Shown: positions 1 to 5,435 of the stretch, in pieces
Layout of the letters: each line of letters starts with the position of its first letter
Position numbering within the stretch: position 1 is the stretch's first letter
From: Flavobacterium ovatum
Lineage (GTDB): Bacteria; Bacteroidota; Bacteroidia; Flavobacteriales; Flavobacteriaceae
DNA length: 64,000 nucleotides
Assembly: GCF_040703125.1 (NCBI RefSeq)
Contig: NZ_CP160035.1
Span: forward strand, 2,941,001 to 3,005,000
Direction of reading: 5' to 3'
Position numbers and translations under genes: made by a program
The notes under the pieces: model-generated
What the model was told of the DNA's origin: nothing
Databases searched by the model: none
Seen by the model: the letters and a program-made list of their open reading frames with translations, nothing else

Positions 1-1137
1 TTTTACACCAATCATTTCACCGCGACTCAATCGCACTAAATTGCATAGTAGAATAGGGTTTTCATCTCCATTTTTCCAAGTGCATAACATTCTCACTTCT
101 ACTTTTATTTTGCCTTCAGGAGCTTGTAGAATCGGGAAGTAATTTACTTTTTTCTGTAGGATATAAAGTTCTTTCTCAACGACGGATTCAATATCTTCTC
201 TCTTTACATGAAAAATAACACCTGAACCAGAGAAAGAGAAGAGTGGTTTTAATACATAGTTTTCTAAATCATCTGGAATTTTTTTTAATTCGCTTAATAA
301 AGTTGTTTCAATGAAATATTTCCCTTTGAGGAGCGGAAGAATAAATTTACTAATTCTAAAAAACCAATTGGGGTGTCCCGCCCATTCCACATCTAATTCG
401 TCAGTGAAGTGGAAATTCAATTGTAAGTCGGTTCTTGCGTTTAGTTCGTCAAAAATTACTCGATTGTAGATTCGTTTAATTAAAACATCAATACCTTTTT
501 CATTGGTGTAAAACAATTGATTGTCTTTCTTGATAACCTCAGTAACACAGACAAAGTTGACACCCAAGTCCCTTTTACAATAATAAAAATCAATTTTTGT
601 ATTTTGTTTTTCAGGCTCAATTTCGAGTAGAATTACATTTTCTTTTGGGTGGCCGTTGCAAATAACTTCCTCGAGAGTTTTTAGATATTCATCATTCGTA
701 ATTTTGTTTACAAAAGGAGAAAATTCACTTAAAAAGGGATACTGATTTGTGAATTTTTCAAATAAATTATTTTGATAATTAAACAAAGAAGGGAATCCTT
801 GTACTTCAATTAATTTAGGAATCACCTGTCCTTCTTCTTCACAAATTCCAAAATCTATCGCAATAAAGTTAGTGTGATTGTCTTCGTTAGGCACTCTATT
901 ATTTAGTTCTAATGATTTGTTTGTAAGTTGTTTGAAGTTGTTACTCTTAATTAAAGCTATAACTTCATTGGAGCCTTCAATTAATTGTGATTTTAATTCT
1001 TTTGAAATAAAAAAAGGAGTTTCTCCGACTCTAAAAGTTGGGGAGTAATCAAAGTCAGAGGTAACATCAATTTTTAGATTTCGATATTTTTCTTCTGAAA
1101 ATTCGGCATTGAATTGTTCCCTATATTTCGCAATCAT
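1..1137 (-). CDS. ATP-grasp-like protein of an amidoligase operon (3' end cut off)
   Basis: This is an open frame of 379 codons from an ATG at 1137 that runs off the left edge with no stop, so the C-terminus is missing. The product starts MIAKYREQFNAEF. Residues around LIKRIYNRVIFDEL, a glycine-rich LKPLFSFSGSGVIF segment, and a following basic/acidic strand (KVEVRMLCTW) resemble the core of ATP-grasp ligases, perhaps the circularly permuted kind related to glutathionylspermidine synthase. It would then join a carboxylate to an amine using ATP. It lies 15 nt downstream of the amidotransferase gene and is the last visible gene of a leftward operon with a YbdK-type ligase, a second ATP-grasp enzyme and an esterase. 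Coding status is certain. The ATP-grasp assignment is by eye and moderate, and the substrate is unknown. Confidence 0.65.
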   Translation of the reverse strand, partial: MIAKYREQFNAEFSEEKYRNLKIDVTSDFDYSPTFRVGETPFFISKELKSQLIEGSNEVIALIKSNNFKQLTNKSLELNNRVPNEDNHTNFIAIDFGICEEEGQVIPKLIEVQGFPSLFNYQNNLFEKFTNQYPFLSEFSPFVNKITNDEYLKTLEEVICNGHPKENVILLEIEPEKQNTKIDFYYCKRDLGVNFVCVTEVIKKDNQLFYTNEKGIDVLIKRIYNRVIFDELNARTDLQLNFHFTDELDVEWAGHPNWFFRISKFILPLLKGKYFIETTLLSELKKIPDDLENYVLKPLFSFSGSGVIFHVKREDIESVVEKELYILQKKVNYFPILQAPEGKIKVEVRMLCTWKNGDENPILLCNLVRLSRGEMIGVK

Positions 1138-1152
1138 ACAAAGGTAATTTAC

Positions 1153-1986
1153 TTAATTGGACATAATTTTTTTAGTTTTCATCAAATCATTTACTGCAAT
1201 TCGAAGAAAATTTGGAATCAATGTTTCGTTAGTTTTATAAATTTTATCATCGTCTAATAAGTCCTCTAACATGTTTCTAAATTTTCTTTTCCCTTTCATT
1301 TTTCGGATTTTATCTTTGGCTTCCTTATCTCTTAAATGAGCAACAAAACTAATAGGATCTGCTTCAGGGTGAAATTGTGTTCCAACGAAATAATCGGTGA
1401 ATCGAACCGCCATTATGGCTCTTTCATATTGAACATAGTCTCTTATTTTTTCTAAGGAAAGTATTTTGGCACCTTTCTTTTTAAAAATAGTTAGCTTGGG
1501 TTGTACTACTTGATAATCTCTGGAGTCAATCGCATAAAAAGGGTCGTCTAGGCCTTCAAATAAAGGATCTATTTTACCTTCGGGAGTTTTATGGATAGTC
1601 ATTACGCCAAAAGAAGTGCCTTTTCTTTTGGTGATTTCAGCCAAACCAAAATGTTTACAAGCCATCTGAAACGAATGGCATATAAATAGCATATGTTTTT
1701 TTACTGAACTCTCTTGATTCCATTTCGTGAGTTCATCAATAAATTTATAATATTTAATTTCCCAATTTCCATCTCCTTCTAATGGGTTTCCAGGGCCCCC
1801 AGTAGAGATGTAAATGTCATATTTTTCAATTTCGGGCAATTCACATTTAGAACGTACATCAAAAATGTCAAACCTAACCAAAGGTGAAAATCGATTAACT
1901 ATTTCAATAATGCATCGCATTCCTTGATTGGGTTGGCCATCATACATATCTAAAATGGCCATCCTGATTGATTTCTTATTATTCAT
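1153..1986 (-). CDS. Class I glutamine amidotransferase-like protein
   Basis: A 277-residue GATase class I domain. The putative triad is visible: nucleophile Cys103 in LFICHSFQ, and His206/Glu208 in GTQFHPEAD. An oxyanion-type loop, STGGPGNP, lies near residue 62. The family hydrolyses glutamine to ammonia for a partner synthetase, or cleaves gamma-glutamyl bonds. The nucleophile context is CHS rather than the common GxCxG, so its substrate may differ from glutamine. An ATG at 2010 would add MFYFKYHK. The ATG at 1986 (MNNKKSIRMAIL) is preferred because the next residues begin the first beta strand of the fold. It sits 42 nt after the YbdK-type ligase and 15 nt before the ATP-grasp-like gene, so it is probably co-transcribed and may feed or edit the ligase products. 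Confidence 0.85.
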   Translation of the reverse strand: MNNKKSIRMAILDMYDGQPNQGMRCIIEIVNRFSPLVRFDIFDVRSKCELPEIEKYDIYISTGGPGNPLEGDGNWEIKYYKFIDELTKWNQESSVKKHMLFICHSFQMACKHFGLAEITKRKGTSFGVMTIHKTPEGKIDPLFEGLDDPFYAIDSRDYQVVQPKLTIFKKKGAKILSLEKIRDYVQYERAIMAVRFTDYFVGTQFHPEADPISFVAHLRDKEAKDKIRKMKGKRKFRNMLEDLLDDDKIYKTNETLIPNFLRIAVNDLMKTKKIMSN

Positions 1987-2028
1987 TTTGTGGTATTTAA
2001 AATAAAACACAAATATAAGGTATTATTT

Positions 2029-3135
2029 TTAGAGACCTTTTGTGAACTGATTGGTGATAAAATCAACAACTTTCTTTAAGTCTTTAGTTTCTTCGTAAAC
2101 AGCTAATTGCTGCGCTGCACCTGTACCGTTTTTTAAAATTTCATGGACATAATTGATATGTTCTCGACTACCTAATTCGTCAACTACATCATCAATAAAG
2201 TCAAGTAATTCATGTATTAAAATTCTAGTTTCAACTTCTTTTTGAAGTCCAAAATCAATCATATGCCCTTCGATTCCGTAGCGTGCTGCTCTAAATTTAT
2301 TTTCTTTTATAAGTGCCAGTCTATAAATATTGAAACTCATATTACCTTGATTCATTCGGTATAATTTGGCTACAACAGCTTGAATTACAGATACAATACA
2401 CATGGTTTCTTCTACTGTTAAACTCATGTCACAAATACGAAACTCAATGGTGTCATAAAATGGGTGTAAACGTAAGTCCCACCAGATTTTTTTAGGATTG
2501 TCGATACATTTGGTTTTAACTAAAGTATCCAGAAAATTATCATAAGCAGCTAAACATTCAAAATATTCAGGCAATCCCGTTCTTGGGAATTTATCAAATA
2601 CTTTGGTTCTGTATGATTTATAACCTGTTTGTCTTCCTTCCCAAAAAGGGGAATTAGTGGAGAGCGCAAAGATATGAGGTAAAAAATAACAAGCTTGATT
2701 CATTAATTGTAGCCCTATTTCTCTATTTTCAATACCCACATGACAGTGCATTCCAAATATCAAATTGGATCGTGCTGCATCTTGTAATTCATTGACAATA
2801 TTGTGATATCTAGGGTCGTCTGTAATGAGTTGGTCTTGCCATTTGGCAAAAGGATGTGTGCCAGCTCCACCTACAATTAATTCTTGATTGGCAGCCAATT
2901 CCACTATTTTAGAGCGTAAAAATTTAATTTCACTTTCAGCTTCTTGTACGTTATTGCAAATATTAGTTCCTACTTCGACAACAGATTGGTGCATTTCCGC
3001 CTTTACTTGTTCTTTTAGTAAGGTTTTTGCTCCATCCACAATTTTGGACAAATGCGAACGTAGATCTCTAGTTTCAGGATCAATAATTTGATATTCCTCT
3101 TCAACACCAAGTGTGAAAACTGGTAATTTTTTCAT
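2029..3135 (-). CDS. Carboxylate-amine ligase, YbdK / GCS2 family
   Basis: This 368-residue protein belongs to the glutamate-cysteine ligase family 2 (YbdK type, COG2170). The hallmark N-terminal GVEEEYQIID lies at residues 10-19, where the acidic residues bind metal-ATP. Further family features are the GMHCHVGI stretch and the WWDLRLHPFYDTIEFRICD block. Members ligate glutamate or another carboxylate to an amino group using ATP. YbdK of E. coli has only weak gamma-glutamylcysteine ligase activity, so annotating this as a glutathione enzyme would be unsafe. No glutathione synthetase of classical type is adjacent. Its neighbours are two ATP-grasp-type proteins, an amidotransferase and an esterase, which suggests a dedicated amide-bond pathway. 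The length is normal for the family. Confidence 0.9.
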   Translation of the reverse strand: MKKLPVFTLGVEEEYQIIDPETRDLRSHLSKIVDGAKTLLKEQVKAEMHQSVVEVGTNICNNVQEAESEIKFLRSKIVELAANQELIVGGAGTHPFAKWQDQLITDDPRYHNIVNELQDAARSNLIFGMHCHVGIENREIGLQLMNQACYFLPHIFALSTNSPFWEGRQTGYKSYRTKVFDKFPRTGLPEYFECLAAYDNFLDTLVKTKCIDNPKKIWWDLRLHPFYDTIEFRICDMSLTVEETMCIVSVIQAVVAKLYRMNQGNMSFNIYRLALIKENKFRAARYGIEGHMIDFGLQKEVETRILIHELLDFIDDVVDELGSREHINYVHEILKNGTGAAQQLAVYEETKDLKKVVDFITNQFTKGL

Positions 3136-3190
3136 TTTTGGAAAAATAAATATAAATTTATAATTGGTTCGCTTTTTGGGTTGATAGTTA

Positions 3191-4138
3191 TTATTTCTGT
3201 AGGATAGCTTCTTTAATAAAGTTACCCCAAGTTAGGTTAATTTTTCCGAATTTCTGTTTTTTTGCGGCTGTAATTGCCATTTTCGCAGCTTCTTCAACTA
3301 CCCATTCAAAATTTCCAGCACCAACAGAGGTTATTTCTGCATCTGGTGCTGGATTTCCAAAATCAATTGCATAAGGAATTCCGTCACGTACAGCAAATTC
3401 TACGGTATTAAAATCATATCCTAAGCCTTTGCATAAACGTATGGTGTAGTCTTTTATAGTCGCTAATAATTTTTTATCGGTAGGAGGCCCGTCGTGAACG
3501 TACCTTAAATGGTGTGGGTTTCTAGGTTCGTATTGCATAATTCTAACTGCTTTACACCCCAAACAATACACTCTAAAATATTCTGTGAATACAATTTCTT
3601 CTTGAAGCATCATAACTAGTTGTCCTGTTTCTTGATGCTTTTCCCAAAATTCTTCTTTGTTTTCAAGTCGATATACGTTTTTCCATCCACCTCCAGAGTA
3701 TGGTTTCATATAGGCTGGAAATTGTATATAGTCAAATATTCCTTCCCAATCCATAGGATATTTTAAGTTTCTAAAGGAAGTAGTACTCGTGTCATCGGGA
3801 TGTTGTGCAGATGGTAAAATGACAGTTTTAGGTAAAGGAACACCTAGAGTATCAGCTAGTGCATTGTTGAAAAATTTATCATCAGCACTCCACCAAAAGG
3901 GGTTGTTAATTACATTAGTACCTGTCAAAGCAGCATTTTTCAAAGCAGCTCTATAAAAAGGGACATCATGTGAAATACGATCTATAATAACGACATATTC
4001 TCCTCCTTTGTTTTGAATAACTTTGTCAATTGAGACCGCTTCTGCTATAATCCCTTTTTCATTTTTCGAATTTACTCTGTCGATAAATGCTTGTGGGAAA
4101 CTGTTTTCCATTCCAAATAAAATACCTATTTTTTTCAT
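3191..4138 (-). CDS. ATP-grasp ligase (RimK / D-Ala-D-Ala ligase-like)
   Basis: A 315-residue protein with a recognisable ATP-grasp order: an N-terminal Rossmann-like part (KKIGILFGMENSFPQ), the NNPFWWSADDKFFNN segment leading into the central domain, a glycine-rich ATP loop (YMKPYSGGGWKNVYR), and the metal-binding end (TVEFAVRDG, then AIDFGNPAPDAE). Such enzymes activate a carboxylate as acyl phosphate and couple it to an amine, for example in peptide tags or glutathione-like molecules. The gene is 26 nt downstream of the esterase and 55 nt upstream of the YbdK-type ligase on the same strand. The pair of distinct ligases suggests two successive couplings. The substrate cannot be read from the sequence. 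Confidence 0.85.
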   Translation of the reverse strand: MKKIGILFGMENSFPQAFIDRVNSKNEKGIIAEAVSIDKVIQNKGGEYVVIIDRISHDVPFYRAALKNAALTGTNVINNPFWWSADDKFFNNALADTLGVPLPKTVILPSAQHPDDTSTTSFRNLKYPMDWEGIFDYIQFPAYMKPYSGGGWKNVYRLENKEEFWEKHQETGQLVMMLQEEIVFTEYFRVYCLGCKAVRIMQYEPRNPHHLRYVHDGPPTDKKLLATIKDYTIRLCKGLGYDFNTVEFAVRDGIPYAIDFGNPAPDAEITSVGAGNFEWVVEEAAKMAITAAKKQKFGKINLTWGNFIKEAILQK

Positions 4139-4164
4139 AGTTATGTTGTTGTTATTTACTTGGG

Positions 4165-4881
4165 TTAATATTGAAATCGGATTCGGGATAAATAATGAGG
4201 AAACATCTCCTTCCAGACAGGCCAGTCATGTTCACGGTCTTGTCGAATGTCTAACCAATGTGATATATTTTTATTATTTAAAATTTTACTTAGTTTGAGA
4301 TTAGCGTCGTAACAAATATCCCAGTTAGATGTTCCTAAGGCTACGTCCATATTCCATAATTCATTGTCTTCAATTCCGTGTAAATAATCTTCAGGATTGT
4401 TGTAATATACATCATCATTATAAAAGCCATCCATAAAGCTTTTGATATTAAAAGCTCCGCTCATAGAAAAAAGATGGCTAACATATCCTGGATGTTTGAA
4501 GGCAAAATTGGCTGCGTGATAACCACCAAAACTACATCCAGCAACTACAACTTTACCAGAAACAGTGTTGTTTTTTACTTTTTCAACAATTTCATGACAA
4601 ATCATTTTATGATACAAAATATGATTAGTGATGCGATGAATCGGATAAATACTGGTATTATAAAAACTGTCTTTGTCAATACTATCAGGGCAATATATTT
4701 GAATCAGTCCTTGCTCAATATACCATCGGGCAGATTCAATCAATCCCATATCTTTATTTTCATGAAAACTACCCATTGAGGTTGGAAACAATATAACGGG
4801 TTGTCCAGAATGGCCAAAAACCAACATTTCAATCTCTCGACTTAAGTTAGGTGAATACCATTTGAAATATGCTTCTTTCAT
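4165..4881 (-). CDS. Putative esterase, alpha/beta-hydrolase fold (COG4947 type)
   Basis: A 238-residue cytoplasmic alpha/beta hydrolase with no signal peptide. The nucleophile elbow is GCSFGG with Ser117. A likely oxyanion loop is LFPTSMGSF near residue 31, and the C-terminal REHDWPVW supplies the probable catalytic His218. The family resembles the D-family of putative esterases. It is the first gene of the leftward amidoligase operon, with the following ATP-grasp gene 26 nt away, so it may cleave or transfer an ester or amide in that pathway, or proofread a ligase product. About 150 nt upstream carries no gene and is the likely promoter region for the whole operon, though no clear TAnnTTTG box was found there (nearest TATACTTG). 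Confidence 0.85.
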   Translation of the reverse strand: MKEAYFKWYSPNLSREIEMLVFGHSGQPVILFPTSMGSFHENKDMGLIESARWYIEQGLIQIYCPDSIDKDSFYNTSIYPIHRITNHILYHKMICHEIVEKVKNNTVSGKVVVAGCSFGGYHAANFAFKHPGYVSHLFSMSGAFNIKSFMDGFYNDDVYYNNPEDYLHGIEDNELWNMDVALGTSNWDICYDANLKLSKILNNKNISHWLDIRQDREHDWPVWKEMFPHYLSRIRFQY

Positions 4882-5033: not shown

Positions 5034-5435
5034 TCAAACGGAAGAATTTTCAAATAGTTGTACTTGACTTTTCAATCGTTCAATGAGTAAATTCATCATT
5101 CGCTTGTTTAGGCTTGATGAATTTTTAATATAGGTAACGTATTCCTCAACAGTAAACAATGCAATCACCATTCCTTTTAGTGCATTCCTGAATTTAATGT
5201 CTTTTTGAATCGCATTTTCAATAGTAAATAATTTTTTTTCTATTGATTGCGAATAAAAATCAATTTTATTCTTAGAAATGTAATTATGAAAAGATGCCAC
5301 AAATAAATCATTTTGTAATTTTAAAACGGGGCGTAGCACTTGATTTTGAAAAATTTCATCTGAGGAAGATTCTGTGCTGATTGTTCCAATTGATTCCCCT
5401 CTAAACTCTTTTAAAAATAGATCTCTTTGGTTCAT
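5034..5435 (-). CDS. Conserved hypothetical protein (133 aa)
   Basis: A soluble, mostly helical 133-residue protein that begins MNQRDLFLKEFRGESIGTI and has no signal peptide or membrane segment. I recall similar flavobacterial proteins carrying the automatic name 'glyoxalase', but I see no vicinal-oxygen-chelate metal motif here, so that name is not supported. The gene reads leftward, 153 nt upstream of the esterase that heads the amidoligase operon. It diverges from the thioesterase gene at 5501 across a 65 nt gap, so it may have its own promoter. Function unknown. Confidence 0.7.
   Translation of the reverse strand: MNQRDLFLKEFRGESIGTISTESSSDEIFQNQVLRPVLKLQNDLFVASFHNYISKNKIDFYSQSIEKKLFTIENAIQKDIKFRNALKGMVIALFTVEEYVTYIKNSSSLNKRMMNLLIERLKSQVQLFENSSV

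Follow-up and report, generated by a model that had tools for sequence, protein, structure and literature searches.

Neighbourhoods that mix ATP-grasp, GCS2 and GATase proteins with hydrolases and peptidases were reportedly described by Iyer and co-workers in 2009 as amidoligase neighbourhoods, and were predicted to synthesize small peptides. The class is defined by the conserved co-occurrence of several amidoligases with hydrolases or peptidases. GCS2 enzymes form gamma-glutamyl amides, and class I GATases canonically place their nucleophile in the context C-x-G-x-Q. Pseudopeptide synthesis free of NRPS is also found in the fungal E-64 pathway, in which, according to PMC12568646, Cp1B is partnered by an ANL-type ligase and an oxygenase and has the active-site residues R-x-D ... 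E-x-N. The operon analysed here likewise shows conserved co-occurrence of several amidoligases with hydrolases and peptidases. Among the matches listed in a literature search of titles and abstract openings, nothing pointed to this operon, and a keyword search of PMC4431377 and PMC8939145 gave no match.

Layout of the locus

The window, meaning the whole 64,000-nucleotide stretch of the Flavobacterium ovatum genome under analysis, begins with five genes on the reverse strand. All five are called from open frames. The first gene, A (4165..4881, 238 aa), encodes an esterase-like alpha/beta hydrolase, and B (3191..4138, 315 aa) an ATP-grasp ligase that is weakly RimK-like. They are followed by C (2029..3135, 368 aa), a YbdK/GCS2 carboxylate-amine ligase, D (1153..2010, 285 aa), a stand-alone enzyme of class I GATase fold, and E (1..1137), a second ATP-grasp ligase, of glutathione synthetase/GspS/YgiC fold. 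The gaps A–B, B–C, C–D and D–E are 26, 55, 18 and 15 nt, in agreement with the first-pass annotation, which had described five leftward genes separated by 15–55 nt. Judged by the relatives of D, its start is probably the ATG at 1986 and not the GTG at 2010.

Gene E is open at the window edge. Its full frame (L002:11947-13137, 396 aa) has its final 54 bases to the left of the window, and 0.7 kb lie between its end and the next leftward gene, so the operon seems not to extend left, as had earlier been thought possible. A scan for promoters and terminators found signals no more common than in shuffled sequence. Across loci, genes were called by script with a crude open-frame method.

On the 5' side of A, after a gap of 152 nt, an open frame on the same strand (F, 5034..5435) encodes a 133-aa protein with no assigned family; its match to DUF6943 (E-value 0.011) is under the cut-off. 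F was found in 22 of the 80 best-scoring loci of at least 587, and in 2 of 60 loci of an even sample of the phylum, the window genome counted. It is possibly an extra operon gene in Flavobacterium.

Families and folds of the encoded proteins

The gene calls of the first-pass annotation are supported. C and D score above Pfam cut-offs, and A, B and E match their families below cut-off. C exceeds three curated cut-offs (PF04107, 197.8 versus 21; TIGR02050, 290.4 versus 176.4; NF010039, 518.9 versus 371), and its profile matches YbdK (1r8g) at an E-value of 4.3e-67 over positions 5–340. D contains the class I GATase domain PF00117 (38.2 versus 22.8), and the NCBIfam equivalogs that it matches are all under cut-off. 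The Cys-His-Glu triad of D (C111/H214/E216) is unchanged in 23 of 23 aligned sequences. The nucleophile context in these 23 is C-H/Y-S-F/Y-Q and not C-x-G-x-Q, and D is therefore named here a GATase-fold enzyme rather than a proven amidotransferase.

Single-sequence searches of A, B and E against solved structures gave no match, and profiles were more successful. The best match of the A profile is 5vol, a putative esterase (E-value 4.6e-9); alpha/beta hydrolase families match A with every score under cut-off, the nearest being PF00756 (21.4 versus 22). S117, D188 and H218 are unchanged in 18 of 18 aligned sequences and would form the catalytic triad. In the est2 profile, two subfamilies of esterases are combined.

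Both B and E of the window are below the curated cut-off of each family that they match. B matches the RimK family TIGR00768 at an E-value of 1.1e-6, with 28.2 bits against a cut-off of 143.4. The best solved matches of its profile are all ATP-grasp enzymes – biotin carboxylase (7.7e-5), pyruvate carboxylase, and D-Ala-D-Ala ligase (0.0095) – and E247, D259 and N262 are almost unvarying in 26 aligned sequences. No match to B was found among 72,556 plasmid records at an E-value of 1e-10.

E has the glutathione synthetase/GspS/YgiC fold over its whole length, at 12–15% identity to the top fold matches (glutathione synthetase/GspS/YgiC-YjfC). The Pfam family GSP_synth matches it under the cut-off (E-value 0.008, 15.7 versus 29.3), and is matched by 3 of 19 members of the E family at an E-value of 0.01. 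The motif E111-x-Q113 is present in 19 of 19 aligned sequences and D95 is invariant, while R-x-D has no conserved R, equivalence having been judged by eye. Lacking both the Asn of E-x-N, which Q113 replaces, and the Arg of R-x-D, E may differ in chemistry. A circularly permuted ATP-grasp protein, CPg, retains R134, D136, E148 and N150 in 10 of 10 sequences. A profile comparison of E with CPg is weak (E-value 0.0035, probability 9%); the alignment is collinear across 206 columns but gives no more than a lead. In locus L172 E carries a fused SSF symporter, and in L175 such a symporter is the adjacent gene.

A further ligase, G3, of the gene set est2-M17-G3, is encoded in a partner operon. Its profile matches the L-amino-acid ligases 4wd3 (RizA; 4.7e-25), 3vot (BL00235; 1.6e-14) and BacD (2.8e-11), and its BacD equivalog score is far under the cut-off (36.6 versus 850). 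Ligases of this kind couple free amino acids. A profile comparison of B with G3 is weak (E-value 0.0094, probability 4%). Aminopeptidases of two unrelated families, M17 and M29, are also present in the loci. Neither the near-constancy of hydrolase A nor the partner operon, which lies outside the window, is visible from the window sequence alone.

Conservation and co-occurrence

Seventy-one of the 80 best-scoring loci, from at least 587 in relatives, have A to E all together, loci cut by contig ends being scored as misses; this is a biased sample, made up of the best scores. In the even phylum sample the figure is 14 of 60. The two protein searches scored up to 8000 candidates each and listed 120. 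A lack of conserved co-occurrence, which the first-pass annotation had named as grounds for giving up the idea of one system, was thus not what was seen, and the five-gene set is confirmed as real and kept together in many Bacteroidota. Compared over 79 of 140 loci, the distance matrices of proteins A to E correlate with Pearson coefficients from 0.836 to 0.945, a range that has no unlinked control.

Among 148 sampled Bacteroidota genomes, 60 have B (about four in ten), 63 A, 52 C, 50 E, 40 D and 34 G3. B and E were searched at an E-value cut-off of 1e-3, and A, C, D and BshC at 1e-20; for CPg, G3 and hutH the cut-off was 1e-30, 1e-40 and 1e-150, respectively. Shared with B are 58 genomes for A, 50 for C, 48 for E, 40 for D and 34 for G3; A is carried by 58 of 60 genomes with B versus 5 of 88 without it (G014, G062, G081, G108 and G119). 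Either E or CPg is present in 58 of the 60. B spans 24 of the 33 sampled families, or 23 without the distant B of f13. Two genomes, G007 and G087, have a B of 32–34% identity and none of the other operon genes; these were judged to be distant paralogues and retained in every count based on 60. Further exceptions are G144, with C and E and neither A nor B, G004, with C alone, and G047, where a fragment of E stands alone, a 25-residue match that is counted.

The association with B holds within families, with stratified P values of 5.9e-10 for A (8 informative families) and C (7), 4.7e-9 for E (7), 7.1e-9 for D (5) and 4.2e-6 for G3 (5). Families f22 and f26 keep the operon genes at separate places, and A, B, C and E are all kept in 7 of 8 genomes of f22 and 4 of 4 of f26; the gene set is kept as a single system. 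D is absent from 20 of the 60 genomes with B and G3 from 26, so the core is at most A, B and E/CPg. C is absent from 10 of the 60, two of which carry E (family f5), and a gamma-glutamyl link is accordingly not universal.

In the window genome the partner operon lies after the his operon, and in family f22 hutH follows B. A link to histidine metabolism was dropped. Among the loci examined, adjacency to his was limited to the window genome and L104, and hutH, used as a control, had no within-family association with B (P = 1, four informative families only; by crude count, hutH is in 50 of the 60 B genomes and 57 of the 88 others).

Proposed function and alternatives

On balance, the operon probably encodes an ATP-driven assembly line that makes a small peptide-like (pseudopeptide) metabolite independently of ribosomes and NRPS enzymes and is equipped with hydrolases. 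The first-pass annotation had proposed a multi-ligase amide-forming pathway; this part of its interpretation is supported by the conserved order, by the fold of E and by a co-occurrence that persists in genomes with unlinked genes. In such a pathway C would form a gamma-glutamyl amide, E would activate a peptide carboxylate and then couple an amino acid or polyamine, and B would add a further amide, while the partner ligase G3 might provide or lengthen a dipeptide. D may break a gamma-glutamyl or glutamine amide, either as gamma-glutamyl hydrolysis or to give ammonia for B. A, a predicted and near-constant serine hydrolase or acyltransferase, would act on the product or an intermediate, and the M17 (or M29) aminopeptidase might recycle or trim the product. 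The system's own hydrolases would serve in release, editing or turnover. Points that weigh against this reading are the B genomes that lack C, D or G3, the genomes that break the association, the even sample with its 14 of 60 complete loci, the below-cut-off scores of B and E in the window, and the altered motif of E.

A rather unlikely alternative is reversible tagging, comparable to RimK or pupylation-like systems: a protein, lipid or envelope polymer would receive amino acids (one or several, glutamate for instance) from the ligases and lose them again through A, D and the aminopeptidase. The weak RimK likeness of B and the aminopeptidases of two unrelated families would suit it. None of the 58 complete sets lacks hydrolase A; this fits a reversible tag equally well and counts against the metabolite reading. 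Against tagging, no recurring target, LysW-like carrier or peptide gene was noticed by eye in the locus maps, the fold relatives of E act on small peptides, and G3-like ligases join amino acids that are free.

It is improbable that the product is glutathione, or a close thiol analogue, serving as the main low-molecular-weight thiol. The pairing of C (GCS2) with E recalls the glutathione synthesis pair, and M17 and D might serve degradation. However, BshC, of the bacillithiol route, is found in 147 of 148 genomes (144 above cut-off) whether the operon is present or not, so there is generally no thiol gap for it to fill; part of the known active-site motif is missing in E, and the extra ligases B and G3 would be superfluous. 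Replacement of a thiol was therefore set aside, though G109, the sole genome without a BshC match, has all five genes, A to E.

Amine or peptide catabolism or salvage, with C gamma-glutamylating and D deglutamylating as in a Puu-like uptake shuttle, is very improbable. C directly adjoins D in 73 of the 80 best loci of at least 587, and the SSF symporter of L172 and L175 would suit uptake, but the conserved set has no oxidase or dehydrogenase and its constant part consists of A, B and E/CPg instead of the C–D pair. That these are unrelated housekeeping genes merely sharing an operon is strongly disfavoured and barely credible. The separate gene places in f22 and f26 would suit it, but the same genomes still hold A, B, C and E (7 of 8 and 4 of 4), and A, C, D and E each show a stratified association with P < 1e-8.

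Returning to the metabolite reading, the wide spread of B suggests a basic metabolite and not a niche antibiotic. More tentatively, and doubtful as it stands, the system might make a metabolite or cofactor that has no name yet and occurs across the Bacteroidota alongside bacillithiol. It would be a pseudopeptide, glutathione-like and often gamma-glutamyl, with a synthesis and breakdown cycle of its own; two ATP-grasp ligases and a serine hydrolase would form the constant core that makes it, with E and the circularly permuted ATP-grasp interchanging. The core (A, B and E/CPg) and the partner operon form a minimal gene set for direct expression or deletion, which makes the question testable.

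Comparison with known systems

In its mix of families the operon is like the amidoligase neighbourhoods that Iyer and co-workers reportedly described. C resembles the YbdK/GCS2 carboxylate-amine ligases in its three family scores and in its match to 1r8g, and differs from them in sitting in a multi-ligase operon. G3 resembles the L-amino-acid ligases 4wd3, BL00235 and BacD by profile, and differs from BacD in its low equivalog score and in being tied to the A–E system. E shares the fold of glutathione synthetase/GspS/YgiC-YjfC, and is set apart by low identity, Q113 and the unconserved R. The logic of the operon is similar to that of glutathione synthesis and degradation, glutathione itself not being assumed as the product. 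In the E-64 pathway Cp1B is paired with an oxygenase and a ligase of ANL type (PMC12568646), whereas the partners here are a GCS2 enzyme, a RimK-like enzyme, an L-amino-acid ligase and hydrolases.

Layout and extent of the operon

Gene calling bore out the first-pass annotation of five leftward genes across positions 1-4881 of the window (G000:C1:2941001-3005000). All are on the minus strand, and in order of transcription they encode an esterase-like alpha/beta hydrolase (A), a weakly RimK-like ATP-grasp protein (B), a YbdK/GCS2 carboxylate-amine ligase (C), a class I GATase-fold enzyme (D) and a second ATP-grasp-like protein (E). The operon had been thought possibly to run past the left edge of the window; with the left flank added (locus L002), only E does so, its 3' end lying 54 bases outside. 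The next leftward gene, which reads as a TIM-barrel isomerase-like protein, ends 0.7 kb beyond E, so the operon probably ends at E. Ahead of A is a 133-aa protein without confident family (5034-5435), found in Flavobacterium-type loci.

The window's B and E score under every curated cut-off tried, and among the matches listed the relatives of B are mostly Flavobacterium where named. The alignment of C with YbdK (1r8g) covers most of its length. Residues C111, H214 and E216 of D were kept in 23/23 sequences, with an unusual nucleophile context, C-H/Y-S-F/Y-Q; S117, D188 and H218 of A were kept in 18/18. In B, E247, D259 and N262 were nearly invariant and are read as putative metal ligands.

Co-occurrence across genomes

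A, B, C, D, E, G3 (an ATP-grasp ligase of a partner operon) and CPg (a circularly permuted ATP-grasp ligase found in place of E) were each searched over the same 148 Bacteroidota genomes. B was found in 60 of these. All genomes with D (40/40) or G3 (34/34) also had B, as did 48/50 with E, 50/52 with C and 58/63 with A. CPg had 10 strong matches, in precisely those ten B genomes that lack E once G007 and G087 are left aside, and because it fills these, A, B and either E or CPg were present together in 58/60 B genomes. In the two remaining genomes, G007 and G087, the identity of B is just 32-34% and the other searched genes are all absent. A weaker CPg match (365 bits) occurs alongside a normal E in G137 (G137:C14:29363-30730).

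Association with B was tested family by family (GTDB), which keeps differences between families from producing the signal. P was 5.9e-10 for A, 5.9e-10 for C, 7.1e-9 for D, 4.7e-9 for E and 4.2e-6 for G3; the control, hutH (histidine ammonia-lyase), gave P = 1 in four informative families. The pattern was broken by five genomes with A but no B, by G144, which has C and E but neither A nor B, by G004, which has C only, and by G047, which has only a fragment of E. The genomes of families f22 and f26 have B, C and E at separate sites, yet 7/8 and 4/4 of them retain these genes together with A; this speaks for a common pathway rather than just a common promoter.

Conservation of gene order

A scan of the whole collection gave at least 587 loci. 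In the best 80, A (76/80), C (77/80), D (76/80) and E (75/80) were near B on the same strand, and all four were near B in 71/80, a figure biased upward since these loci are the best-scoring relatives. The genera include Flavobacterium, Algoriphagus, Belliella, Mucilaginibacter, Pedobacter, Dyadobacter, Polaribacter, Winogradskyella and Pontibacter, among others. The five genes were together in 14/60 loci of the even phylum sample; in the remainder, parts of the set were absent or relocated.

Several variants were seen. One open frame (L172:6636-9239) encodes a fusion protein, with an SSF sodium:solute symporter at residues 32-414 and E at 475-866, and in L175 a symporter gene is 18 nt upstream of E. 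In L043, L072 and L169, C and E have an M29 aminopeptidase gene between them. A histidine ammonia-lyase gene follows B in seven f22 loci (L062-L066, L069, L090), and the two of these genes that were scanned exceed the hutH cut-off. Among selected neighbours that were scanned, an Amidohydro_3 gene lies ahead of E in L176 (f22) and L182 (f25); L177 has an S10 carboxypeptidase-like gene after C.

The partner operon

Outside the window, 4 kb from E, on the opposite strand and convergent with it, are genes for an esterase (est2, L002:4038-5180), a leucyl aminopeptidase (M17, L002:5190-6611) and G3 (L002:6615-7829). By profile, G3 matches 4wd3 and 3vot, both solved L-amino-acid ligases, as well as BacD. 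G3 is inside 16/80 best-scoring loci, mostly convergent with E (e.g. L139, L171); in L053 and L055 the order est2-M17-G3-A-B-C-D-E runs on a single strand. A second group of loci has an est2-class gene divergent from A. The est2 profile merges two subfamilies, and est2 was therefore excluded from the statistics. At L199:10392-11360 and L201:4921-5910 the gene ahead of M17-G3 encodes another type of alpha/beta hydrolase, YheT-like when judged by eye. In the window genome the partner operon comes directly after histidine biosynthesis genes (L002:6-3918), an arrangement shared, among loci examined, only by L104.

Proposed pathway

The protein families suggest a route starting from free amino acids. 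G3 would join or supply a dipeptide, C would form a gamma-glutamyl amide, and B and E would each add one more amide, the acceptor for E being perhaps an amino acid or polyamine. D, M17 (or M29) and A may form the hydrolytic side – gamma-glutamyl removal or ammonia supply, trimming, and release or turnover. The order of steps is guesswork. C is missing from 10/60 B genomes, which rules out a universal need for the gamma-glutamyl group.

The near-constant hydrolase A would be compatible, too, with reversible tagging of a protein or polymer, but inspection of the loci by eye brought no recurrent target or carrier gene to notice. The proposed route from free amino acids has the logic of glutathione metabolism. 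Its product need not be glutathione, because BshC, a bacillithiol enzyme, is in 147/148 genomes, with or without the operon, and PMC6282198 reports N-methyl-bacillithiol detected in Polaribacter sp. MED152 and bacillithiol predicted for Bacteroidetes. The one genome without BshC, G109, has all of A-E; this absence is possibly a draft-genome gap.

The papers listed by literature searches, seen mostly as titles and the starts of abstracts, gave no description of the A-E set, and no prior description was found of the constant core, the partner operon or the ligase replacement. Neighbourhoods combining several amidoligases with hydrolases and peptidases are a known kind of system, reportedly described by Iyer et al. 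in 2009.
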